A stretch of DNA of 25,306 nt, from the IMG/VR virus record IMGVR_UViG_3300033144_002341, positions 1 to 25,306 of that record. The stretch is one strand, 5' to 3'. The position numbers and the translations under genes are program-made. The DNA comes from a virus. Shown here piece after piece: positions 3,899 to 16,344 of this stretch (positions within the stretch are counted from its first letter, which is position 1; each line of letters begins with the position of its first letter). The notes under the pieces were generated by a model that worked only from the letters and a program-made list of their open reading frames with translations, was not told where the DNA came from and did not search any database.

Positions 3899-4254
3899 CG
3901 GACTGGGCGAAGTGGGCTTATAATCCCAATAACCTGGACTGTCCTACTTGTAAGAAGAATGCGAAATTGCAAGATAGGAAAGTTGATTGCAATAAATGTC
4001 CCTTCAAGAAACTAAAACCCACACTCATGGTAGAGAACTATCCTATAGTATCCCTGGTGGAAAGATACAGTGGTATACTTACGGACGGTATGGGTGGTAT
4101 TTCTGCTCAAGGCATACAGATGGCACTTGACAGTGAGGATTGGGTAGATGCACACAACAGGCCTGAATACATTAGGAAGTTGTCTCTATACTTGATTACA
4201 GCACTAAAAACCTCTAACAAGGAAAAACCTCATGGCAAAGAAAATACAAATTGA
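3581..4254 (+). CDS. Tail assembly chaperone, frameshifted long form (gpGT-like)
   Basis: The downstream frame is open from 3883 to the TGA at 4252-4254 but has no ATG at its head (its first usable codon would be a TTG at 3967 without SD). It starts instead by a -1 slip at A AAA AAC (3889-3895), giving a 224-residue fusion: 105 residues of the short form plus 119 more. The extension begins LTDWAKWAYNPNNLDCPTC and holds two cysteine pairs (CPTC and CNKCP, about 15 residues apart), suggesting a zinc knuckle. Its end overlaps the tape-measure start by 23 nt. In lambda the T part contacts the tube protein; the same job is inferred here. Confidence 0.75.
3872..3895 (+). promoter_or_regulatory. Programmed -1 ribosomal frameshift site
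   Basis: The heptamer A AAA AAC sits at 3889-3895 with phasing X XXY YYZ in the zero frame, immediately followed by the zero-frame stop TAA. An SD-like GGGGAGG at 3872-3878 lies 10 nt upstream, the distance at which an internal SD stimulates -1 slippage in E. coli dnaX; a second, AAGGAG, lies at 3881-3886. I see only a weak downstream stem (TGGG/CCCA around 3913-3928), so the upstream SD is the likelier stimulator. Confidence 0.75.
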
Positions 4255-6721
4255 TGTAATAGCAAATGACAAGGCCTCCAGGGAAGTCAAGAAGATAGGT
4301 AAGAATACTGAGCGGGTGTTCAAGAATGTCCAAAGCAGTTCGGCCAAACTCGGTAGAAGTATGCGAACCTCTATTAGGGGTGCTGTAACATCTATAAATG
4401 CAGGCATGAGAACTCTGGGGTCAAGATCCAACAGAGTATTCAAGAGCATGATAAACGGCGCCAAGAGATACAAAACCAGTATTGATAATGCCTCAAAGTC
4501 TATGCAGAATCTGGGTAGACGGAAAGGCGGGGGTCTTGGAGATGCTGGCGGTGGTGGTGGAGGTTTTGGACTTGCCTCTGTTGCACAGATTGGTGCGGCA
4601 GGGTCTTTAGCACAGTCGGCTGGTAGAATATCAAAAGGATTTGCAGAGGGTTCAAAAGAAGCCAGAACACTGAACACCATTATACGAACTACATCTGGGG
4701 AACTCAGAACCGTTAGAGAAACAATAAATCTGAATGCCAGAGGTCTGGAAAGAATGACTGAGGCTGGTGTAGGTGGAAAGTTTCAGTCAAAGGTTTTTGG
4801 TAAAGAAATGAAGGTGACGGCAGCAGGCATACAAGCCACCCGGCAGAAAGTCAACGACCTCAACAGAGATTTTGGCGGCCTGGGAAAGACGATAAAGCAA
4901 GTTACCGGTGAGACTAAAGCACTGAATAAAAGTTTCAGAATGACTGGCAGCGTGAAGGATAATATAGTAGCCGTGAAGGCGGCTTGGTTGAAGTTCTTAG
5001 CGGTAGCCGTAGCAGTCAAGGTCGCTGTGGATTGGACTAAGATGGGTGCGGACGCCATGCAACAACAGGTTGCGTTCAGAAACATGGCGACAAGTATGGG
5101 ACATGATGCGGACAAAATACTTGCCGATTTGAAACGACTTTCCGGCGGCACAGTTAGTGAGATGGTATTGATACAGAAGGCTGGAACTGCAATGATGCTG
5201 GGTATCGACCCAAGCAGACTTGCGGAGTTGATGGGGATTGCAAGAGCAACTGCGAGACTAACTGGCCAAGAAGTATCAGAGGCATTTGGTGATATAGCAA
5301 TGGCGGTTGGTAGACAATCCAGGATGATTCTTGACAACTTGGGTATTATAGTCAATGTAGGGGAAGCCAATAAAAGGTATGCTAAACAACTAAAGAAGAC
5401 TGTCAAACAACTTAGTGACTACGACAGGAAGCAGGCTTTTCTAAATGAAACTATTAGGAAGGGTGCTGTGTTAGTCAAACAACTCGATGTCAATGCCAAG
5501 AGCACATCAGAAACATTCCAAACATGGGGTGCAACATTTGAAAACCTGAAGGTAACGATTGGTAAAGGGTTGGTCAAAGTATTTCAGTTTATAGAAAAAA
5601 TGTCTGTTGTATGGATTACGGTTTTAGATCAAGGTTTCATGGCCTTGAAATTTACATTCGCCGGGTTTGGTAAAAGTCTCAAACTGACTTTTATAGATGC
5701 ATTCCACGAGATCAAAACGGCTTGGGCAAAAACCGTAAACTATATCAAGAACAAAGTCCCAGATTTCCTAAAAGACAAACTTGGTATAGATACTTCTAAA
5801 ATCACACTACCTATAAACAAGATGGGTGCTGAACTAAGAAAAGAACTTACAATGACAAGGGAGCACTACGAAGAAGAAAGAGAAAGAATGTGGGATGTCG
5901 GTATGGGTTTGTTAGATGATTTGAGCAAGGCCCATTCCCCAGGGGTTACTAAATACAAAGTCAAGGTAGAAGCCGAAATAACATCAGTAGAAATACCACA
6001 AGAGCAGTTGGATAAAGTAAAAGAGTTTGCCGAAGGGTTTGTGAAGGATGTTAGAACCAGCACACCTCCTGTCGAAGAATACGAAGACATGGAAGACATC
6101 ATGCAAAGGATAAGAGCAATCCAGAGAGATATTATGGTTGAGAACGGAACTTGGGTGCAACAGTTCTTATACGGCGTAGGGTTGTCGATGGAGAAGGTGG
6201 ATTCTTGGGGTGAGACCATGGTTCAGATTGGTGAACAGATAAATAATGTTATGGCCAACAACCTAACCAATGCCTTTGAGGATTTTATAGACGGGACTAA
6301 GACGGCCAAAGAGGCCTTCGCTGATTACGCAAAAAATGTGGTCAAATGGTTAGGACAAATAATAGTCAAGCAACTAATACTAAACGGACTAAAATCTTTA
6401 GGCGGTATGGGTGGTGGCACAGGATGGGCTGGTATTATAGCCAGCATTGCAAGCACCGCTGCCAAGGCCGGGGGTGGGCCTGTGTCTGGGGGTAAACCAT
6501 ATCTTGTTGGAGAGAGAGGCCCAGAACTATTTGTTCCAAGTGGTGCAGGTAGTATCAAGTCCAACCAAGAAACCGTGGAGGCCGCTCCGATTGAAGTGAA
6601 CATTGCCAACCTTACAGACCCAGCTATGATGGATGCCTACATCGCATCGTCAAGAGGACAAAATGCAATACTCAATGTGATAGGACAAAAGGCAGGACAA
6701 GTTAGAAGGATGGTGAGATAA
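4232..6721 (+). CDS. Tail tape measure protein
   Basis: 829 residues, the longest gene in the window. AAGGA at 4219-4223 sets the ATG, inside the end of the chaperone extension. The N-terminus is basic and helical (residues 1-70, rich in K/R/S) and is followed by a glycine-rich linker near 95-112. Hydrophobic helices appear around 248-268 (WLKFLAVAVAVKVAV) and in the middle (MSVVWITVLDQGFMALKF). The C-terminus carries the tape-measure signature GGPVSGGKPYLVGERGPELF, shared with lambda H-type proteins. It sets tail length and is ejected with the DNA. Using the usual rule of about 0.15 nm per residue, the tail would be about 120 nm (inference). The 1-nt overlap TAATG couples it to the next gene. 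Confidence 0.9.
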   Translation: MAKKIQIDVIANDKASREVKKIGKNTERVFKNVQSSSAKLGRSMRTSIRGAVTSINAGMRTLGSRSNRVFKSMINGAKRYKTSIDNASKSMQNLGRRKGGGLGDAGGGGGGFGLASVAQIGAAGSLAQSAGRISKGFAEGSKEARTLNTIIRTTSGELRTVRETINLNARGLERMTEAGVGGKFQSKVFGKEMKVTAAGIQATRQKVNDLNRDFGGLGKTIKQVTGETKALNKSFRMTGSVKDNIVAVKAAWLKFLAVAVAVKVAVDWTKMGADAMQQQVAFRNMATSMGHDADKILADLKRLSGGTVSEMVLIQKAGTAMMLGIDPSRLAELMGIARATARLTGQEVSEAFGDIAMAVGRQSRMILDNLGIIVNVGEANKRYAKQLKKTVKQLSDYDRKQAFLNETIRKGAVLVKQLDVNAKSTSETFQTWGATFENLKVTIGKGLVKVFQFIEKMSVVWITVLDQGFMALKFTFAGFGKSLKLTFIDAFHEIKTAWAKTVNYIKNKVPDFLKDKLGIDTSKITLPINKMGAELRKELTMTREHYEEERERMWDVGMGLLDDLSKAHSPGVTKYKVKVEAEITSVEIPQEQLDKVKEFAEGFVKDVRTSTPPVEEYEDMEDIMQRIRAIQRDIMVENGTWVQQFLYGVGLSMEKVDSWGETMVQIGEQINNVMANNLTNAFEDFIDGTKTAKEAFADYAKNVVKWLGQIIVKQLILNGLKSLGGMGGGTGWAGIIASIASTAAKAGGGPVSGGKPYLVGERGPELFVPSGAGSIKSNQETVEAAPIEVNIANLTDPAMMDAYIASSRGQNAILNVIGQKAGQVRRMVR

Positions 6722-7905
6722 TGACGGCATACCTTACTATACAACCCTCTACACAGAAGGTGAGTCATGTGTGGAGGACTACAATACAGAAAAGTTTGAA
6801 CGGCAGTGAGAAGAGATCTGCCATAAGAACCTATCCCAGCCTCGGCCTTACCACTTCTTATGGTTTTGACAATCACAAAAAATCAATGTGGTTGAAGGCC
6901 AATCTATTCCATAACATAACTGATCTATGGGCCGTGCCTGTGTGGTCAGATTACACAACACTAACGACTACTGCCAGCGGTGGGACTTCTACCCTATCCG
7001 TGAGTGAGGCAGATTATAGACATTTCCAAGACGATAGACAAGCAATAGTTATAGACGCAGATGACTGGACTTCATATGAGGCAGTCACAATAAGTGGGAC
7101 TACTTCCAACACAGTTGTTGTGTCAGGAACACTGGTCTCAACATGGACTACTGGTAGTTATGTAATACCTTTGTGGGAGTGCAGGATAAACCCGGCACAA
7201 GTAGTCAATAGAAAGGTGAGGTCTTTTGAAACATTCACCCTAACAGCAATGGAGGCATATGAATCACAGAACACATTTACCTACAGTGTGCCTTCCACCT
7301 CAGTGACTACCTATTCAGGATATGATGTATTTGACAAGGCACCTAACAGTCCTATAGAATATAATTTCTATAGGCCATATGAACTAACACAATACTATGG
7401 ATTAGGTGATATAGAAACTTATTATGCAAGTGACCAAACAGACATGCCTACCAAGGCAAGTTTCATTTACAACACCAAGGAAGACATCAGTGACTTGTAT
7501 GATTTCTTTGACAATAAAAAGGGAAGACTGGACACCTTCTGGATGCCTTCATGGAACAAGGACTTAGTCCTAACCTCTGCCGTGACCTCAAGTGGTGTGG
7601 TGTTGAATGTAGAAGATATAGATTACAATGGTATATGGTTTGCCAATGACTTAGTGGGTAGACACCTATACATACAACTACCTGATAAATCATATGTATG
7701 TAGAAAGATAATAGGATCAAGTTCTACTACTGTGACAATAGAGAGTTCCATAGGCACTGCTATAACTGACTACGCCGACGCCTACATTAGTTTTCTGAAC
7801 TTCAGTCGGTTCGACATAGACGAGTTAGAGATAGATTTTCATCCCAACAATGTGACCGCACGAACTGACATTAGTTTTATGGGAGTTGTGGAGGAGACAC
7901 CGTGA
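6721..7905 (+). CDS. Distal tail / minor tail protein
   Basis: 394 residues, beta-rich throughout, with no signal peptide. The start is coupled to the tape measure by TAATG. The C-terminal part holds the strings YDFFDNKKGRLDTFWMPSW and FSRFDIDELEIDF, the 'lvrFddDelei.w.t.gva...l.f.El' ending seen in minor tail proteins placed directly after the tape measure in GTA-like and marine siphophage tail operons. It is longer than a DUF2460 protein because of an inserted beta domain around residues 80-150 (ASGGTSTLSVSEADY onward). It would form the ring that connects tube and tip. Confidence 0.7.
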   Translation: MTAYLTIQPSTQKVSHVWRTTIQKSLNGSEKRSAIRTYPSLGLTTSYGFDNHKKSMWLKANLFHNITDLWAVPVWSDYTTLTTTASGGTSTLSVSEADYRHFQDDRQAIVIDADDWTSYEAVTISGTTSNTVVVSGTLVSTWTTGSYVIPLWECRINPAQVVNRKVRSFETFTLTAMEAYESQNTFTYSVPSTSVTTYSGYDVFDKAPNSPIEYNFYRPYELTQYYGLGDIETYYASDQTDMPTKASFIYNTKEDISDLYDFFDNKKGRLDTFWMPSWNKDLVLTSAVTSSGVVLNVEDIDYNGIWFANDLVGRHLYIQLPDKSYVCRKIIGSSSTTVTIESSIGTAITDYADAYISFLNFSRFDIDELEIDFHPNNVTARTDISFMGVVEETP

Positions 7906-8732
7906 CTAAAAATGTAACACAGGACTTCATAGACGAGGAAGAGGCACGAACCAGACAACCTGTAGAGTTATATCATATCTATAGAGATGGGGGAGACGAA
8001 CATTGGTATTACACAAGTGGTGATGTGGCACTAACCTTTGGTGGCAATGTCTATACCCCAGCGACAATAAAAAGAAATGAGATTACTTACAACTCTGATT
8101 TGTCGGTCACTACAGTAAATGTTCAAGCCGCATTTATTACCGATCCCGTAATTGATTTCATAGTCCAGAATCCAGTAGAGATGTTGTGGATACAGATTAT
8201 GAAACTACACAGAGACCAGAGTCCGTTAGAGGCAAATGTCCTATTCACAGGACAAATAAAGTCTGTCAAAATCAGAGGTAATGTAGGACAAGCAGAGTGC
8301 GTTGGTTTTGAATGGTATTTCAAACAACAGATACCAAAGTATAGATTCCAACCTGCGTGTAATAATACATTGTATGACGGATACTGCACAGCAGACAAAC
8401 CTACTTACACACATGTTGTAACGGCGTCAGGGGTTAGTGATGACGGCCTTGAAATAACAAGTGGTGACTTTGCAACCATCTCTGGTGCGTCAGACAACTA
8501 TTTGGCATTGGGTTACCTGTCTTGGGACAGTAATCTAAGAACTATAGCATCACACATAGATGATACTATTACACTAACATATAAGATTATAGGACTAACA
8601 GCAGGACAGACAGTGACGGTTTATGCTGGATGTGATCTGAAGATAGAGACCTGTAGGGACAGGTTCAATAATGTCAATAACTTTTTCGGACATCCTTATA
8701 TACCACTTGACAATCCTGCAATGAGATATTAG
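7902..8732 (+). CDS. Phage BR0599/DUF2163-like baseplate hub protein
   Basis: 276 residues, GTG start overlapping the previous stop by 4 nt, with GAGGAG just upstream. The N-terminal half has the family pattern VELYHIYRDGGDEHWYYTSGDVALTFGGNVYTP and later VLFTGQIKSVKI. The middle has YRFQPACNNTLYDGYCTAD, the cysteine-containing 'C...LyD..C' element. The end, GCDLKIETCRDRFNNVNNF followed by GHPYIPLDNPA, is the most diagnostic stretch and matches the iron-sulfur or metal-site motif of the GTA hub homologue. The four conserved cysteines are all present. It belongs to the tail-tip hub and precedes the peptidase as in GTA-type operons. Confidence 0.85.
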   Translation: MTKNVTQDFIDEEEARTRQPVELYHIYRDGGDEHWYYTSGDVALTFGGNVYTPATIKRNEITYNSDLSVTTVNVQAAFITDPVIDFIVQNPVEMLWIQIMKLHRDQSPLEANVLFTGQIKSVKIRGNVGQAECVGFEWYFKQQIPKYRFQPACNNTLYDGYCTADKPTYTHVVTASGVSDDGLEITSGDFATISGASDNYLALGYLSWDSNLRTIASHIDDTITLTYKIIGLTAGQTVTVYAGCDLKIETCRDRFNNVNNFFGHPYIPLDNPAMRY

Positions 8733-8741
8733 GAGGGTATA

Positions 8742-9197
8742 ATGAAGTATTATTTCGAGGACAAGAAGAACCAAGAAAGATTGAAGAAGATTCTTGACGA
8801 ATGGTTAGGCACACCTTTCAGACACAGAACAGGCGTCAAAGGACAGGGTGCTGACTGTATACATTTCGTGGCCAAGGTGTATGATGAGATGGATATAATT
8901 GAGTTTGCTTTGAGTGATGTTCCAGATTATTCACCGGACTGGCATCTACATAATACAAGACAGAAGTTGTTTGAGAAGATAATATCTACTGTTCCAGTGG
9001 AGCAAGTCCCGATTGATAACTTGATGAATGGGGACTTAGTGCTTTCCCACTTTGGTAAAGCGGCCTCACACACTTCGGTTTTCTTTGATGGTTATTTATA
9101 CCACGCCATAACTAATATAGGGGTAATAAAAGAAGAGATAAATAACTCCGTAGTGACAGGGAAACTAAAATTCGCACTGAGGTTACTCAACGAATAG
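8742..9197 (+). CDS. NlpC/P60-like tail peptidase
   Basis: 151 residues with AGGAGGG upstream. The motif WLGTPFRHRTGVKGQGADCIHF (residues 21-42) gives the catalytic Cys39 in the 'G.DC..fv' context, and SHTSVFF gives His110, the second residue of the dyad. This is the layout of the cell-wall peptidases that lie between hub and tip genes in siphophages. The enzyme would cut peptide cross-links in peptidoglycan during DNA entry, or process tip proteins during assembly. A polar third residue is not assignable by eye. Confidence 0.85.
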   Translation: MKYYFEDKKNQERLKKILDEWLGTPFRHRTGVKGQGADCIHFVAKVYDEMDIIEFALSDVPDYSPDWHLHNTRQKLFEKIISTVPVEQVPIDNLMNGDLVLSHFGKAASHTSVFFDGYLYHAITNIGVIKEEINNSVVTGKLKFALRLLNE

Positions 9198-9205
9198 GAG
9201 ACATT

Positions 9206-9607
9206 ATGAAAAAAACAAGATTCAATGAGATAGAAAAGATGACAGGAGCGTGGGAATACGACAAGAAAGTAAAGTTCGGAGGACTACAGGACTTTGCCGC
9301 TTTTATAAAACATATAAACGACAGTGATATATCAGTAGATGAGGTTGTGGAATATGTAGAAGAACACAAACACAGAGTTATGTTGGAAGAGAAGGCACAC
9401 GAAAAAAAGACAAAGGCGGCAAAAGATAGGTGGCGTAAGAAGGTAAGAAAGTGTCCTGAATGTGGTAAACCACTGAACCTTGGTAGTGTTGGAGAGAATA
9501 TCAAAGAGTATAATCATCAATGGTTCTGTCTTGAAGATGACTGTAAATTTGTAGAAGAGTTTGGCACAGAGACGGTGCAAGAAATAATAGAACAGTTAGG
9601 GGTATAA
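9206..9607 (+). CDS. Hypothetical protein with C-terminal zinc ribbon
   Basis: 133 residues, SD GGAG just inside the end of the peptidase gene. The N-terminal two thirds are helical and charged (FNEIEKMTGAWEYDKKVKF, then a K/E-rich helix). The C-terminus carries CPECGKPLNLG and, about 25 residues later, CLEDDCKFVEEFG, a four-cysteine zinc ribbon. Genes of this kind are occasionally found beside tail-tip genes, but I do not know the function. It lies in the operon with no gap, so it is co-expressed with the tip proteins. Confidence 0.65.
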   Translation: MKKTRFNEIEKMTGAWEYDKKVKFGGLQDFAAFIKHINDSDISVDEVVEYVEEHKHRVMLEEKAHEKKTKAAKDRWRKKVRKCPECGKPLNLGSVGENIKEYNHQWFCLEDDCKFVEEFGTETVQEIIEQLGV

Positions 9608-9610
9608 GAC

Positions 9611-11623
9611 ATGAGTGTAGGAAGTATAATAGGTGGTGCGGTTGGTGCAATAGCTGGTTTCTTCCTTGGAGGCCCTTACGGCGCATGGGTAGGATTTACT
9701 ATTGGATATGGTATAGGTGCTATGATAGACCCACTGACTCCAGACATGAATCAAGCTGGACAACCGGCAATAGGTGCTTTGGCCGTTACTACAGCAGAAG
9801 AAGGTATGGTGCTTCCTGATGTGTTAGGAACTACTAAACTATTAGGTAATATAGTATGGTATTGTTGCGATAGGTCTGAAGAAATCACCGAAGAAGTTGA
9901 GACTGGTGGTAAGGGTGGTGGCGGTTCACAGACAGTTGTGACAGGACATCAATACTTCCTAACATGGGCCGAGGTAGTTTGTCTTGGGCCTGTTGATACT
10001 ATCTATACAATATATGCTAATGATGATGTAGTATGGGAAGGCGAACTAAACAGACCAACAATAAGTGGCGGCCAAGAAACCATTACCTTAGACGATATGG
10101 GTGCGGTAACCGTTTACTTTGGAACAGATGACCATGTAGCAAACTCTACAATAGGTGCGAACTTAGAAGACGATACATTGAACACACCATACAGAAACCA
10201 ATGTTGGTTTTTCTATAATGATTGTAAGATAGGTGATTATAACAGATCACCAACTATGAAGTATATCCTAAAGAAATCCCCTGAGATACCAGCACTAATT
10301 GGAACCGCTGGTATAGAAACTATAAATGAGTATGACTATAACCCTGCTCATGCTGTATGGTATATCCTGGAAACAATGACGGGATTGTCTGATACATTCC
10401 TGGATGCTACCACATTCAGTGGTGCGTCTGAAACATTGAAACAGGAAGAGAGAGGAATAAGTATGTTGTTCTCTCAGTATCAAACTGCTGAAACATACAT
10501 AGATACTATACTAAGTCACATAGGTGGTATATTGAAACCCACCTCCGACGGGTCGTTTGGACTGAAACTAATAAGAGCAGACGCCACTGTTAGTGGTATG
10601 GAAACATTTACTGCTGGCCCCGATCTTGTCAATAACTACGATTTCACCAGAAAGAGTTGGTTGGACACAGGTAATGAATACAAAATACAATACGCACAGA
10701 GAGTGTTTAGAGCACCTGTGTGTCCACACCACAGTGAAGGTTATGTTGATACAGGAGTATCAGGAATACCAGAGATTGGTATAGACCCTGGCACTACTTA
10801 CGAACTAATAATAAACAATGAAGAGTCACAGGAATACTTTGGATTAGATTGTAACTCTGATTTTATGTTTGATGAAGCGGGCGGAACTTTTGGAACTCCT
10901 ACGAGAAATGAGGACGGGTCTTGGACTATACCTTATACTTCTGCTGCTGACTTATGCAGTAGAGAGAACTGTCCTATAATATTTGAACAAGTGTATCCTT
11001 GTTGTGATTGTGCAACTGCCGAGACATTAGAATGGGCCGAGGGTAACCCAGAGACAATAGCCGTAAGTAACTCAGCGGTAGTTTCTGTAGAGGGTGGACT
11101 TGCTCAATACTTCTGGACAGTTGATGGGACAGGGTTCTGGTTAGACCAGTCATTCACCACTAAAATACTAACGACTACAGGTAAATCAGTAACAGTTTAT
11201 ACAGACGGTTCTGCCTGTGGTGGGGTTGAGATAGATGTAGTGGATGCATGTAGTAGCACAACTGGCGGTTCACTAAGAGCACCGAGTGGAGGTTGGGTTC
11301 TGGTCATTGATAGAAACTGTGGTATTATAAATAATCTTGGTGGGTGTCTGACACAGTGTGGTGATAATTCAAGTCACTGGGAAACAATGGGTGCTCATAG
11401 ATATTCACAAGCATGGTATACTGGAACCAGAATAAACGAACAATATCTTGGTATACAGTATGCGGCGTGGTCTCAAGTTCCATTTGCAGGTTCTTGTGGC
11501 CCCCCATGGCAGGGTGGATGTAGTCCCCCTTATGGGGAAGGGTGTCCTGGATATCACTTTGACTTCTGTATAAAAGAGTATAGGCCTGGTAGACAAAGAG
11601 AGTGGGAATGGAGGTGTCCATAA
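9611..11623 (+). CDS. Tail tip protein, N-terminal part with cysteine-rich C-terminus
   Basis: 670 residues. The start (GSIIGGAVGAIAGFFLGGPY) is the glycine-rich membrane-like helix that opens tip proteins of GTA and lambda J type families, followed by PAIGALAVTTAEEGMVLPDV and GTTKLLGNIVWYC. The conserved core runs to KSWLDTGNEYKIQYAQRVF near residue 366. In related proteins the chain continues with 'dyKts.vq..DLAn', but here residues 368-670 are a different block with 17 cysteines. That block includes an Ig-like repeat (ETIAVSNSAVVSVEGGLAQY to VDAC) and an aromatic, Cys/Gly/Pro-rich end. The missing half is the next gene. The tip protein contacts the host and opens the tail. Confidence 0.75.
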   Translation: MSVGSIIGGAVGAIAGFFLGGPYGAWVGFTIGYGIGAMIDPLTPDMNQAGQPAIGALAVTTAEEGMVLPDVLGTTKLLGNIVWYCCDRSEEITEEVETGGKGGGGSQTVVTGHQYFLTWAEVVCLGPVDTIYTIYANDDVVWEGELNRPTISGGQETITLDDMGAVTVYFGTDDHVANSTIGANLEDDTLNTPYRNQCWFFYNDCKIGDYNRSPTMKYILKKSPEIPALIGTAGIETINEYDYNPAHAVWYILETMTGLSDTFLDATTFSGASETLKQEERGISMLFSQYQTAETYIDTILSHIGGILKPTSDGSFGLKLIRADATVSGMETFTAGPDLVNNYDFTRKSWLDTGNEYKIQYAQRVFRAPVCPHHSEGYVDTGVSGIPEIGIDPGTTYELIINNEESQEYFGLDCNSDFMFDEAGGTFGTPTRNEDGSWTIPYTSAADLCSRENCPIIFEQVYPCCDCATAETLEWAEGNPETIAVSNSAVVSVEGGLAQYFWTVDGTGFWLDQSFTTKILTTTGKSVTVYTDGSACGGVEIDVVDACSSTTGGSLRAPSGGWVLVIDRNCGIINNLGGCLTQCGDNSSHWETMGAHRYSQAWYTGTRINEQYLGIQYAAWSQVPFAGSCGPPWQGGCSPPYGEGCPGYHFDFCIKEYRPGRQREWEWRCP

Positions 11624-13005
11624 TGACTATTATTGACTACAAAACTTCTATAGTTCAATCAGACGATCTTGCAAATAAAATTATGCTCGGCAGAGTAAAC
11701 AGTAAAACTGTCAGATTGATGTTGTATACCAGAAGTGTAAACGCCTCTTGGGCCGCAAATAGAGCAATCAAACACGAAGGATATCCTGTTGCCTTATACA
11801 CTCTACCTTGTAATAGAGACTCATTTAGGTTGGAAGTTGGGGACAACTTTATATTCTCTGACCCAAACAAAGGTATTGTGTCCACGGTGTTGCGGGTGTT
11901 GAACATCACAGAAGAAGATCTGAACTCAGAAACAATCGTAGTGAATGCGATAGAAGATGTAGAGTATCTGTCAAGCACCATTATCAACACAGGAACAATA
12001 GGACAAAGTCCTTTCTCAGACTGGACGGTGGACGACTTGGAAAACATATACATTATAGAGGCACCTTATGCATTGTCGGGTAATGACATTGAGGTAGTCC
12101 CGTTGGCCGCAAGAGAAGGCAGTAATGAAACAGGTTATGTTCTATACATGTCTATTGATGGTGGTAGTTCATATAATATGTTATCTACTATCACAACATT
12201 CAATCCACACGGAACACTGGTGGCGGACTACACAGCAGACACATACCAGATAGACGACCAAGTAGGATTTCAAATAACATTCTCAAACGATGATGTAGAT
12301 CAAATCTCGTCCATTACAAGGACACAACTAATGGCTGGCCACAACCTGGCACTCTTAGGGGATGAGATAATTTCATTTATGGACATAACACCAGTGAGTG
12401 GTTATACATATTCTATTACGGGTATCTACAGAGGTAGGTTGGACACAGTGACCACAGACCACTCGGCCGGTGAGGATTTCTTTTTCGGCGGAACATCACA
12501 CTTCAGAAGAATATCTGCTCCTGAGATTCAAACAGGGGTCACAAGACAGTTCAAGATGGTTCCCTACAACATCAAATCAACGGGAGACATTGCAACTGCA
12601 TCGGGTATTGAATTGACTATTACAGGTAGAGCAAAAGAACCTTACACACCTTGGAACATAAAGGCGAACGACGAGGAATGGTATCCACTCTACACTACAG
12701 ATATTGTGTTGGATTGGGATTCAAGGATTAGAGGAACGGGTGCTGGTGTAGGTGATGCAGACACAGTAACAGACACTACGCCTACTTATGAAGGTGCTTT
12801 TGATATAGACACCGTAGTAAGTGGTTCAGTGGTTAGATCTACCACAGTGTCAGGATTGACTTGGACTTACACCTCGGCAATGAACATTTCAGACAACGGT
12901 GCTTTGATGGACGAGGTAACTTTCACGATAAATAATTTCAGAATAGAAAACACTATTACATACTCATCAGACAATAAAACAATAATAGTAACTAAGGAGT
13001 CATAA
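11623..13005 (+). CDS. Tail tip protein, C-terminal part (split J/GTA-type)
   Basis: 460 residues. I choose ATG 11623 because GGAGG at 11610-11614 is 8 nt upstream and the start forms TAATG with the previous stop; a GTG at 11602 and an ATG at 11608 are in frame but lie before or within the SD. The protein opens with IDYKTSIVQSDDLANKIMLG, then WAANRAIKHEGYPVALYTLP and FRLEVGDNFIFSDPNKGI. In related phages these segments continue directly after the core that ends the previous gene. After about residue 140 come beta-sandwich segments and a Ser/Thr-rich C-terminus (SGSVVRSTTVSGLTWTYTS). I infer that both halves assemble as one tip. Confidence 0.75.
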   Translation: MTIIDYKTSIVQSDDLANKIMLGRVNSKTVRLMLYTRSVNASWAANRAIKHEGYPVALYTLPCNRDSFRLEVGDNFIFSDPNKGIVSTVLRVLNITEEDLNSETIVVNAIEDVEYLSSTIINTGTIGQSPFSDWTVDDLENIYIIEAPYALSGNDIEVVPLAAREGSNETGYVLYMSIDGGSSYNMLSTITTFNPHGTLVADYTADTYQIDDQVGFQITFSNDDVDQISSITRTQLMAGHNLALLGDEIISFMDITPVSGYTYSITGIYRGRLDTVTTDHSAGEDFFFGGTSHFRRISAPEIQTGVTRQFKMVPYNIKSTGDIATASGIELTITGRAKEPYTPWNIKANDEEWYPLYTTDIVLDWDSRIRGTGAGVGDADTVTDTTPTYEGAFDIDTVVSGSVVRSTTVSGLTWTYTSAMNISDNGALMDEVTFTINNFRIENTITYSSDNKTIIVTKES

Positions 13006-13007
13006 CA

Positions 13008-14069
13008 ATGCCTTACACAGATAAGTATAACTTTGAGGAAGTAGGATACGGGGTCAGCGGTTGGAATGGTATAATGACCACCAACATGCAACTGGCAGAC
13101 GACGCTATTCAGTCCAGAGTGTTGGGAACCATAGGAGAAAATGTTTCTCAGTATGATGCTGTAGCAATACACCCAGATGAGAAGTATTGGAAATCCCCTG
13201 CTTCAGGAACATCCTACCCAACCATAGGACTAATGTATGAAGCGGCAAGTGCGGAAGATGTAGATAAAAGAATATACATCAAGGGAGAAGTCACCAACGC
13301 ATCTTGGGGTTGGACTGTATCAAGTGGTGTGTATACCTCTGCTACTACTCCTGGTGAATTGACACAGACCCTTATCTCAGGTTCACTGCAACAGTTTGTA
13401 GGAACTGCTGTGGCATCTGGAACTATTATTTTGGCAACTGATGAAAGTATTTTTGTAACGAGTGGTGGGATACAAGGAGTGACCGACCACGGCACACTCA
13501 CCGGACTAAGTGATGATGATCATACTATTTATTCATTAGTAGATGGAACAAGGTCATTCACTGGCGCAGTTCTTGGTGTATATCCTACACAACCATTACA
13601 TTTGGCCACGATGAGTTATGTAGATACTGTGGTCTCAGGGGTAGACCAACATAATGAGTTAGGCAACCTCGACTATGCAAGTGCAGGACATACAGGTTTT
13701 GTATCTACTACTACCCTCACAACTGTGAGCGGGGACTTGGTGCAAGGATATACTGATGCAGACACAGATGTAACCAATGCCTTTATATCTGCCGACACCA
13801 CCTTGAGTGGGGAGTTGTATGCTGGATATGTGGCAGCCGATGTGGTTGTAACCGATGCCTTTGTAGCAGCAGACACAACACTAAGTGGGGAGTTATATGA
13901 CCAACTACACGACAGGTCTCATGCAATGACCGATACCTCAGACCACACAGGTGGAACTTGGAAGGTCATTTACTCTGACGGGTCAGGCGACTGGCAAGAA
14001 CTACCCTTGGGGGTGAGTGGAACTGTTCTGACTTCACAAGGCACAGGCATTGCACCAGTATGGGTATAA
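13008..14069 (+). CDS. Tail fibre / appendage protein
   Basis: 353 residues, SD AAGGAG. Residues about 38-155 form a beta domain of the 'capsid-decoration-like' kind (NVSQYDAVAIHPDE, then GELTQTLISGSLQQFVGTAV). The middle has DHGTLTGLSDDDHTIYSLVD, a motif common in fibres with trimeric shafts. Residues 248-273 and 274-299 are a tandem repeat ending ADTTLSGELY. The end, WQELPLGVSGTVLTSQGTGI followed by APVW, resembles the terminal segments of many environmental phage fibres. It probably mediates adsorption. The 3' end overlaps the sulfotransferase gene by 10 nt. Confidence 0.7.
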   Translation: MPYTDKYNFEEVGYGVSGWNGIMTTNMQLADDAIQSRVLGTIGENVSQYDAVAIHPDEKYWKSPASGTSYPTIGLMYEAASAEDVDKRIYIKGEVTNASWGWTVSSGVYTSATTPGELTQTLISGSLQQFVGTAVASGTIILATDESIFVTSGGIQGVTDHGTLTGLSDDDHTIYSLVDGTRSFTGAVLGVYPTQPLHLATMSYVDTVVSGVDQHNELGNLDYASAGHTGFVSTTTLTTVSGDLVQGYTDADTDVTNAFISADTTLSGELYAGYVAADVVVTDAFVAADTTLSGELYDQLHDRSHAMTDTSDHTGGTWKVIYSDGSGDWQELPLGVSGTVLTSQGTGIAPVWV

Positions 14070-14572
14070 GTAAATTTATATTTGTTCATGTGCCTAAGAC
14101 GGCCGGCGGGTCATTTAGTAATATGTTACATGGTGTGTATGACAGTATCACAAGAGACACAGGAAGATCCTTGGACAAGGATTATGATGTGATATATGGA
14201 AACTTTACTTACGACAAATACCTCTACTTATGTAGACCTCAGATAACATTTGTTAGAGACCCGGTAGAGATGACCATCTCAGGGTTCTATTTTTTGAGAC
14301 ATGGGATTGAAAACATTAGGGAGTATGCAGAAGTCAATGCCAACTGCCTGTGTAAATACATAAGAAGTCCCAAACTCTTTGACTTCATAGGAATACAAGA
14401 ACAGTTTGATGAGAGTGTTGAACGATTTGAAAAATGGTCGGGAGTAAAACTATCCCCAGTTCCCAAGAGGAATGTGACCAAGAAGGACACAGTCAGCCCA
14501 GAGGACAGAGAGTATATTAGACAACTAAACCAAAAAGATTATGAATTATACAATACTATAACGGGAGCATAA
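14060..14572 (+). CDS. Sulfotransferase-like protein
   Basis: 170 residues. FVHVPKTAGGSF (residues 8-19) is the 5'-phosphosulfate-binding loop of the PAPS-dependent sulfotransferase family, and FVRDPVEMTISGFYF (64-78) gives the 3'-phosphate-binding Arg66 and Ser74. Near the C-terminus, ED-x-EYIRQLNQKDYELYNTI matches the 'i....D..lY' ending of carbohydrate sulfotransferases of the Sulfotransfer_2 kind. It is short for the family (usually 200-300 residues) and may be a minimal domain. It would move sulfate from PAPS to a hydroxyl, perhaps of a glycan; the acceptor is unknown. No strong SD is visible, so it is probably coupled to the fibre gene it overlaps. Confidence 0.8.
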   Translation: MGISKFIFVHVPKTAGGSFSNMLHGVYDSITRDTGRSLDKDYDVIYGNFTYDKYLYLCRPQITFVRDPVEMTISGFYFLRHGIENIREYAEVNANCLCKYIRSPKLFDFIGIQEQFDESVERFEKWSGVKLSPVPKRNVTKKDTVSPEDREYIRQLNQKDYELYNTITGA

Positions 14573-15282: not shown

Positions 15283-16344
15283 ATGGCAACATACGGAAGA
15301 ACAACGGCTGGAGACAGTGGAAGAACAGAGTCCTGCACAAGAAACTTCTATCCTTATACAGAGGTGGTTGTGCCGGTGTCTTGGGAAGTAACCAGTATAA
15401 CAGGAAGAATAAGACACAACATAGGTGGCAACATTTATGTGAGAGGTATAATTTGCGATAACACTGGAGCAACTATAGCCTGCACCCCTGAAGTTCAGGT
15501 GCCTGCTACAGGCAGCACTTGGGCATGGAGAACTTTTACATTTTCAAGTCCAGTAACCCTTGATGCTGGAGGTAAATACTACTTTGGTGTTATGTCATCA
15601 ACTTCAAGTGTGATTACTCTAAATGGTTTTTATAATACATCTGACATATATGACTGTGGTCATTTACACCATGAGGCTTTACTTTATAGTAATTTATGTA
15701 GTGATAGTTTTGACACTGTTACTGAGGCAGTTGATGATAATCGTATTGACCTTTGTCTTTACCTTACATACACAGATGCAGGTTGTGCGTTAGGAAACAG
15801 AGATGAATCTAAATATGCATACTCGGTTCCAAGCACATACAAATACATGATAACCAAAACAGATGTGGCAACATGTGGTGGAGAGGTTGAAAAATTTGGC
15901 ATATACATGAACACAAACGGTCTTACTGGAAAGTCATTTTGGTTAGCCATCTATAACACCGACGGTAACAGGTTGTATGCTGATTCAAGCCACAGACACT
16001 TTCCAGGAGGTGTGGGATATTATGCCTGGAGAAGATACTCACCTCAAGGAACTGCACCAACAATAACAGTCGGTGAGTCCTATTACATACTGATATTTGG
16101 CACTAATGCTGGTGGTTATCCAAGAGTTGGGTATACTGTTGATGCAGGTATGGGTGGCTGGATAACTCATGCTGGTGATTTATATCCGGCGTATGTAGAT
16201 TTCAGTGGCATTGTCCAACCGAACGAGTCAATGTGTATGTTCATTGATTTAGGGGTTGCGTCCGGGCCTCCATTGGGGCCTGAAGGAATAACACCAGGAG
16301 CAATTGAATTTACAACATGGGAAGATGTGTCGGATGTATACTAA
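15283..16344 (+). CDS. Tail appendage protein with two beta-sandwich domains
   Basis: 353 residues with GGAG upstream. Two related sandwich domains are visible. The first, about residues 30-110, has ITGRIRHNIGGNIYVRGIIC and LDAGGKYYFGVM. The second, about 195-275, has VEKFGIYMNTNGLTGKSFWL and ITVGESYYILIFG. Both have the pattern 'strand, variable-loop, then aGxxYYfgv', which resembles lectin-like or carbohydrate-binding sandwiches. Cysteines are scattered (CTRNFY, CDNTG, CTPE). The C-terminus (GPEGITPGAIEFTTWEDVSD) is short and may be an attachment segment. A receptor-binding role is inferred from gene position and fold pattern only. Confidence 0.6.
   Translation: MATYGRTTAGDSGRTESCTRNFYPYTEVVVPVSWEVTSITGRIRHNIGGNIYVRGIICDNTGATIACTPEVQVPATGSTWAWRTFTFSSPVTLDAGGKYYFGVMSSTSSVITLNGFYNTSDIYDCGHLHHEALLYSNLCSDSFDTVTEAVDDNRIDLCLYLTYTDAGCALGNRDESKYAYSVPSTYKYMITKTDVATCGGEVEKFGIYMNTNGLTGKSFWLAIYNTDGNRLYADSSHRHFPGGVGYYAWRRYSPQGTAPTITVGESYYILIFGTNAGGYPRVGYTVDAGMGGWITHAGDLYPAYVDFSGIVQPNESMCMFIDLGVASGPPLGPEGITPGAIEFTTWEDVSDVY

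Follow-up and report, generated by a model that had tools for sequence, protein, structure and literature searches.

A siphovirus-type tail hub divided between two coupled genes, the first ending in a cysteine-rich module

In the window (the stretch of DNA analysed here, which is the whole 25.3-kb record of an uncultured virus), a siphovirus-type tail hub is divided between two adjacent genes, and the first of these continues beyond the hub into a cysteine-rich module that ends the chain. Closing the tail, the hub ranks among the best-conserved components of siphovirus tails. The reading we favour, at a probability of about 0.7, is that two coupled cistrons encode halves which together rebuild the hub, with the N-terminal chain carrying a portable, chain-ending module that probably contacts the host. 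No near relative of the window was found among 50,697 phage records.

One hub in two adjacent genes

The hub lies downstream of the tape measure protein (TMP), DUF2460, BR0599 and NlpC/P60 genes, and this baseplate set is complete, with no further hub in it. The features concerned are:

4232..6721, + strand: TMP (Pfam and PHROGs matches)
6721..7905, + strand: distal-tail-type protein, DUF2460 (Pfam and PHROGs matches)
7902..8732, + strand: upper hub protein BR0599 (Pfam BR0599 3.8e-17; phiJL001 Gp84_N 2.5e-15)
8742..9197, + strand: NlpC/P60 tail peptidase (Pfam)
9206..9607, + strand: zinc-ribbon protein (CPxCG...CxxxxC), constant neighbour of the module (same family adjoins it in 5/5 contigs)
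9611..10708, + strand: hub N-half, P0001 1-366 (PHROG_1101 E 6e-45; NCBIfam GTA_megatron 4-146; AlphaFold structure matches)
10709..11620, + strand: cysteine-rich C-terminal extension of P0001, residues 367-670 (17 Cys; native codon usage)
10994..11620, + strand: portable module core common to contigs L032, L036, L040 and L045, ending REWEWRCP (W-x-C)
11610..11616, + strand: Shine-Dalgarno GGAGGTG of the C-half (seven-base match, six bases before the ATG)
11621..11625, + strand: TAATG stop/start overlap between the P0001 and P0002 cistrons (sequence)
11623..13005, + strand: hub C-half, P0002 (PHROG_1101 E 7e-61; Pfam Rcc01698_C above gathering cut-off; JBD30 hub 289-721, Z 19.9)

P0001 (ORF 9611-11623, 670 aa) from residue ~27 to residue 366 and P0002 (ORF 11623-13005, 460 aa) are consecutive halves of one baseplate hub of the GTA-megatron/JBD30-gp53 type. 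The PHROG_1101 profile runs from one chain into the other, its positions 26-350 matching P0001 49-364 and its positions 353-792 matching P0002 5-448, and the NCBIfam GTA_megatron profile is likewise shared between the N-half (4-146) and the C-half (871-1283). Against the latter (NF048004) the two halves score 64.8 and 66.2 bits, below the curated cut-off of 800, and on these profile scores the window hub is a relative that falls outside the equivalog. Profile searches done half by half both retrieve the solved hubs of phages chi (8vjh_A) and JBD30, and AlphaFold models of the separate chains match adjacent stretches of the same JBD30 gp53 chain (N-half 2-297, Z 14.4; C-half 289-721, Z 19.9), with the P0001 model matching T5 pb3, chi, JBD30 and GTA hubs at Z 14-15.6. 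The two chains thus lie end to end on one family (PHROG_1101, GTA_megatron and the JBD30 hub). The adhesin-like, central and fiber-binding parts of megatron/tip-J-like hubs keep their order: P0001 1-366 holds two predicted N-terminal helices (iris/penetration-like, 3-42), the adhesin-like part and the start of the central domain, and P0002 holds the remainder of the central domain and a fiber-binding/FNIII-type region. Peptide-pattern searches with P0001 and P0002 gave no matches, broad hub alignments were too diverse to serve for pattern search, and a scan of genome contigs gave one hub locus only (L031).

The chain is continuous across the cut site in 30 other loci (8 annotated phages and 22 others); the window and a second viral contig, L045, have it as two cistrons. 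A sequence-only reading of the window had taken the start of P0002 for the segment which follows the core in single-chain tip proteins, and this holds: in single-chain relatives the gap between the two profile matches is 5-9 residues (e.g., NEVKVNYLDR-SQN-YKAMPAQAQDLAN). With so few joining residues, no domain usual at this site has given way to the cysteine-rich block; such a replacement would have counted against that reading. Large insertions are present elsewhere in relatives' hubs, but these are kept within one chain.

The junction between the cistrons is likewise as that reading described it (coupling by TAATG with GGAGG), and the full Shine-Dalgarno match, GGAGGTG, is tied for the longest among the window's gene starts; for comparison, 9% of all ATGs have 5 or more matching nt at a spacing of 4-11 nt. 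Stop recoding was considered as the cause of the split and rejected: genes in the window and L045 end normally in TAA, TAG and TGA.

The baseplate is anchored to the distal tail ring by the central domain and the hub protein. In the megatron the central domain comprises residues 745-984 (PMC7296036), and the window's C-half starts at about megatron ~870, so the cut passes through this domain (the corresponding region is named hdIII/hdIV in T5 work; PMC10038345). Alignments show that both cut ends are conserved, with N355 and hubC D15/A17/N18 nearly invariant, and AlphaFold confidence collapses beside the cut (P0001 324-366, P0002 1-60) despite aligned rows covering both. Ends that are conserved yet poorly predicted in the separate models fit two chains which complete one domain and whose ends need each other. 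Because the cut lies inside the central domain, the halves very probably co-assemble, which we infer strongly from sequence comparison and the models.

L045 was retrieved with a degenerate pattern of the cysteine-rich block, and its gene order matches that of the window: tape measure, DUF2460, BR0599, NlpC, zinc ribbon, hub N-half with cysteine-rich tail, hub C-half. Its N-half and tail form an ORF of 797 codons (25 Cys) and its C-half one of 464 codons; identity to the window is 50% for the N-halves, 42% for the C-halves and 25-40% for the blocks, and the L045 block is longer, with an additional repeat. The L045 cistrons do not overlap, being separated by a 57-nt spacer with in-frame TAA and TAG before the C-half. 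The hub halves are adjacent and in the same order in both contigs, and not scattered as unrelated genes, the other finding that would have counted against the sequence-only reading. In the tree, the window and L045 group together as a single clade with support 100 on a long stem, so the two examples of a split hub both come from one clade.

Some other genes in these contigs deserve mention. The window's BR0599 protein has a Cys conserved in the alignment and, judged by similarity, is the counterpart of GTA hub g13, lambda gpL and JBD30 gp50. The corresponding gene of L045 has an in-frame TGA (7281-7283, - strand) exactly at the Cys that is invariant across aligned homologues, with conserved sequence resuming after it; selenocysteine, a nonsense mutation and a sequencing error are all possible, and only a weak fold (-3.8 kcal/mol) is predicted immediately downstream. 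The L045 DUF2460 gene consists of two ORFs joined by TAATG (near 8357, - strand), possibly a second gene fission or a frameshift error; it is single in the window (6721-7905). In the window's tail module, a Sulfotransfer_2-type protein (14060-14572; Pfam E 6e-7) lies between tail-fibre-like genes, and downstream of the hub (15283-16344) is a 353-aa protein with 9 Cys; at 2.6% its content is high among the window's large structural products, and it is possibly another host-contact protein.

The cysteine-rich module and its zinc-ribbon neighbour

The hub core of P0001 ends at YKIQYAQRVF (residues 357-366), and the cysteine-rich block starts there, where the sequence-only reading had placed the boundary. 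The block has 304 residues and 17 Cys, compared with ~2.4 expected from the other structural proteins (35 Cys in 4345; binomial P = 8e-10), and its codon usage and GC are the same as those of its neighbours. It had no match in Pfam, PHROGs, NCBIfam, PDB, the 50,697 phage records, plasmid records or searches with exact peptide patterns. Two sub-threshold hits, a PDB 2fe0 profile hit (E 0.048) and Pfam SprB (E 0.027), were not used. The AlphaFold model of the block (pLDDT 25-54) is too poor for assigning a fold or disulfides; an Ig-like fold, considered from the sequence pattern, gets no backing from this low-confidence model and was set aside.

Relatives of the module were found in viral contigs using the degenerate patterns YTDGxACG and GFWxDxxFT (a third, FWTVxGxGFW, gave no matches). 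Besides the two split hubs, it occurs in L032 (433 aa, 22 Cys), L036 (453 aa, 28 Cys) and L040 (342 aa, partial, 28 Cys), in proteins unrelated to hubs. The morphogenesis genes of these three contigs differ from those of the window: L032 has a portal and a major head protein and L036 a virion structural protein (PHROG_437), and in both a large nozzle-like gene is directly upstream of the cysteine-rich gene; L032, L036 and L040 are probably short-tailed phages. The module is at the C-terminus in all five contigs, where the chains end in EWRCP, TWKCP, EWQCV, QWLCS and LWECIP, i.e., with W-x-C within 2 residues of the stop. The family signature is a GG...GxGF...YTD...D-x-C core, the W-x-C chain end and an adjoining zinc-ribbon gene, all of which the window has. 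The module diverges faster than the hub core. Among the single-chain hubs, those of L014, L015 and L017 have ~300 extra residues after the central part, in ORFs with 16-23 Cys.

A zinc-ribbon gene adjoins the module gene in every one of the five contigs, across two kinds of phage, although not always on the same side: it is upstream of the hub in the window and L045, and downstream of the module gene in L032, L036 and L040. Outside the window these genes are:

L045 6002-6463, - strand: zinc-ribbon gene
L032 9974-10387: zinc-ribbon gene
L036 5899-6366: zinc-ribbon gene
L040 1041-1538: zinc-ribbon gene

Matches between the contigs' zinc ribbons are significant but distant. Leave-one-out profiles recover each member, with E-values of 2e-8 to 4e-4 at the weak end and stronger ones for L036 and L040 (whose zinc ribbons are close to each other), and the profiles had no other match among 4923 ORFs. 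The family has a conserved N-terminal KDF-like motif. Its constant presence beside the module gene suggests that the zinc-ribbon protein may be a dedicated assembly or metal-handling (metal-loading) partner of the module.

Proposed origin and competing explanations

The sequence-only reading held that a module was inserted into a tip protein and that the chain was then split. Much of this stands: a single-chain tip protein has indeed been split, a foreign cysteine-rich block sits at the cut, and the halves are retained as one functional unit, an arrangement conserved in L045. The event is better described as the joining of a module to the C-terminus of the N-half. Since the module ends every chain that bears it, including three non-hub proteins, chain termination may belong to the module's arrival and not to a later event.

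In the mechanism we propose, recombination would have brought the chain-ending module, stop codon included, onto the N-half of the hub. The join point would be a turn within the central domain that tolerates additions, from which the module would emerge, and the C-half would have survived as a new cistron by gaining its own start signal and ribosome-binding site. With the cut in such a turn, the N-chain most likely pairs with the C-chain, and three copies of each could rebuild an ordinary trimeric hub. The zinc-ribbon protein may help to fold or load the module. The weakest step is the last one, in which the exposed module would contact the host surface: exposure is probable, as is contact given the module's position, its faster divergence and its occurrence in a second phage group, and a receptor-binding function is plausible.

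A module that is itself structural, i.e., a disulfide- or metal-stabilised clamp or a hub decoration with no host contact, is a serious rival, although we judge it rather unlikely. The very high Cys content, the conserved terminal W-x-C and the zinc-ribbon neighbour would all suit such a role, and metal-sulphur clusters stabilise neighbouring hub proteins (PMC11445458, PMC7296036). However, the module changes more rapidly than the core, with an extra repeat gained in L045, and its presence in a non-hub protein means that it does not depend on hub geometry. Going further than the host-contact reading, one could regard the module and a dedicated zinc-ribbon assembly protein as a portable adhesin system passing between the hubs of siphoviruses and a tail protein in short-tailed phages, the module's obligate position at the chain end having forced hub fission within one domain because the captured module cannot sit inside a chain. 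We hold this extension only tentatively and think it somewhat doubtful.

The remaining explanations concern the split itself. The two chains might now be separate proteins with separate roles (e.g., the C-half alone serving as a fiber-binding part and the N-half acting elsewhere), as would suit separate cistrons which in L045 do not even overlap. This is improbable given a cut through one domain with both cut ends conserved, adjacency and order kept in both contigs, and a complete baseplate set in which there is no other hub. An assembly or sequencing error is less probable again. The true gene would then encode one uninterrupted hub with extra sequence inserted in frame, and the stop and apparent restart would come from an error in a single base; indeed, no stop interrupts the P0002 frame in the 10 codons preceding its ATG (TKRVGMEVSIMTIIDY), and a single indel within 11593-11621 would be enough to fuse the chains. 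Yet the cut recurs at this position in L045, whose identity is only 40-50%, and the spacer there contains two in-frame stops, so a one-base error in the window is not the cause. The seven-base Shine-Dalgarno match at ideal spacing also speaks against an error, as do the three other, unrelated proteins in which the module terminates the chain by W-x-C. We give least weight of all to ribosomal frameshifting or readthrough producing a fused chain in some or all copies. The window has a -1 frame overlap of ~30 nt that might allow frameshifting, but by eye there is no XXXYYYZ slippery heptamer in it; readthrough in L045 would need both TAA and TAG to be read; and a strong start signal before the C-half counts against either process.

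The conserved cut indicates that covalent continuity is dispensable at this point of the central domain. It also shows where extra modules can be attached, and provides a naturally split hub for assembly studies. The module/zinc-ribbon pair is absent from the family libraries and from the isolated phages in the searched collection, and may be an as yet unrecognised host-contact system common to two kinds of phage.

Comparison with known systems

Hubs made of several chains are already known; what is new is the position of this cut and a module unmatched in the searched libraries. A hub subunit may consist of one to three polypeptides, with up to three in lambda, and the division points collect variable extensions (PMC13243795). 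The lambda hub (gpL/gpI/gpJ) is in principle like that of the window in having several polypeptides per subunit, and the window has a separate gpL-like BR0599 protein (7902-8732), as do GTA and JBD30. The gpJ-like part, however, is two chains in the window, both of which match gpJ (8k35_A, 8iyk_F), so the window's cut is elsewhere than lambda's.

The RcGTA megatron (g15) with hub g13 and their relatives (PHROG_1101, PHROG_4271, NF048004, Pfam Rcc01698_C), together with the R4C megatron (8gtc), share the window's baseplate gene order. Their N- and C-terminal domains, including the N-terminal helices, are also as in the window. The window differs in having two chains, in lacking the ~500-residue peripheral domain, and in adding the cysteine-rich module at the cut and a zinc-ribbon gene between the peptidase and the hub.

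JBD30 gp53 with gp50 (8rk3) and the chi tail tip (8vjh) have the same hub fold, but their chain is unbroken at the window's cut site. Hubs of the chi/YuA type have their break close to window residue 100, a point at which the window's chain runs on: the separate 76-aa chi tail-tip chain (8vjh_U) matches the hub N-terminus. These N-terminal ~75-80 residues, fused in P0001, are a separate small gene in L005, L006, L008, L009, L020, L023-L025 and L027. In named phages the detached gene is annotated 'tail assembly chaperone' or 'tail assembly protein', and it matches 8vjh_U; going by that similarity, the 'chaperone' name may be wrong.

Finally, the cysteine-rich proteins of L032, L036 and L040 have a homologous C-terminal module, the terminal W-x-C and a zinc-ribbon gene of the same family. 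Unlike in the window, the module there ends a protein of ~430-450 aa without hub domains, whose gene follows a large nozzle-like gene.
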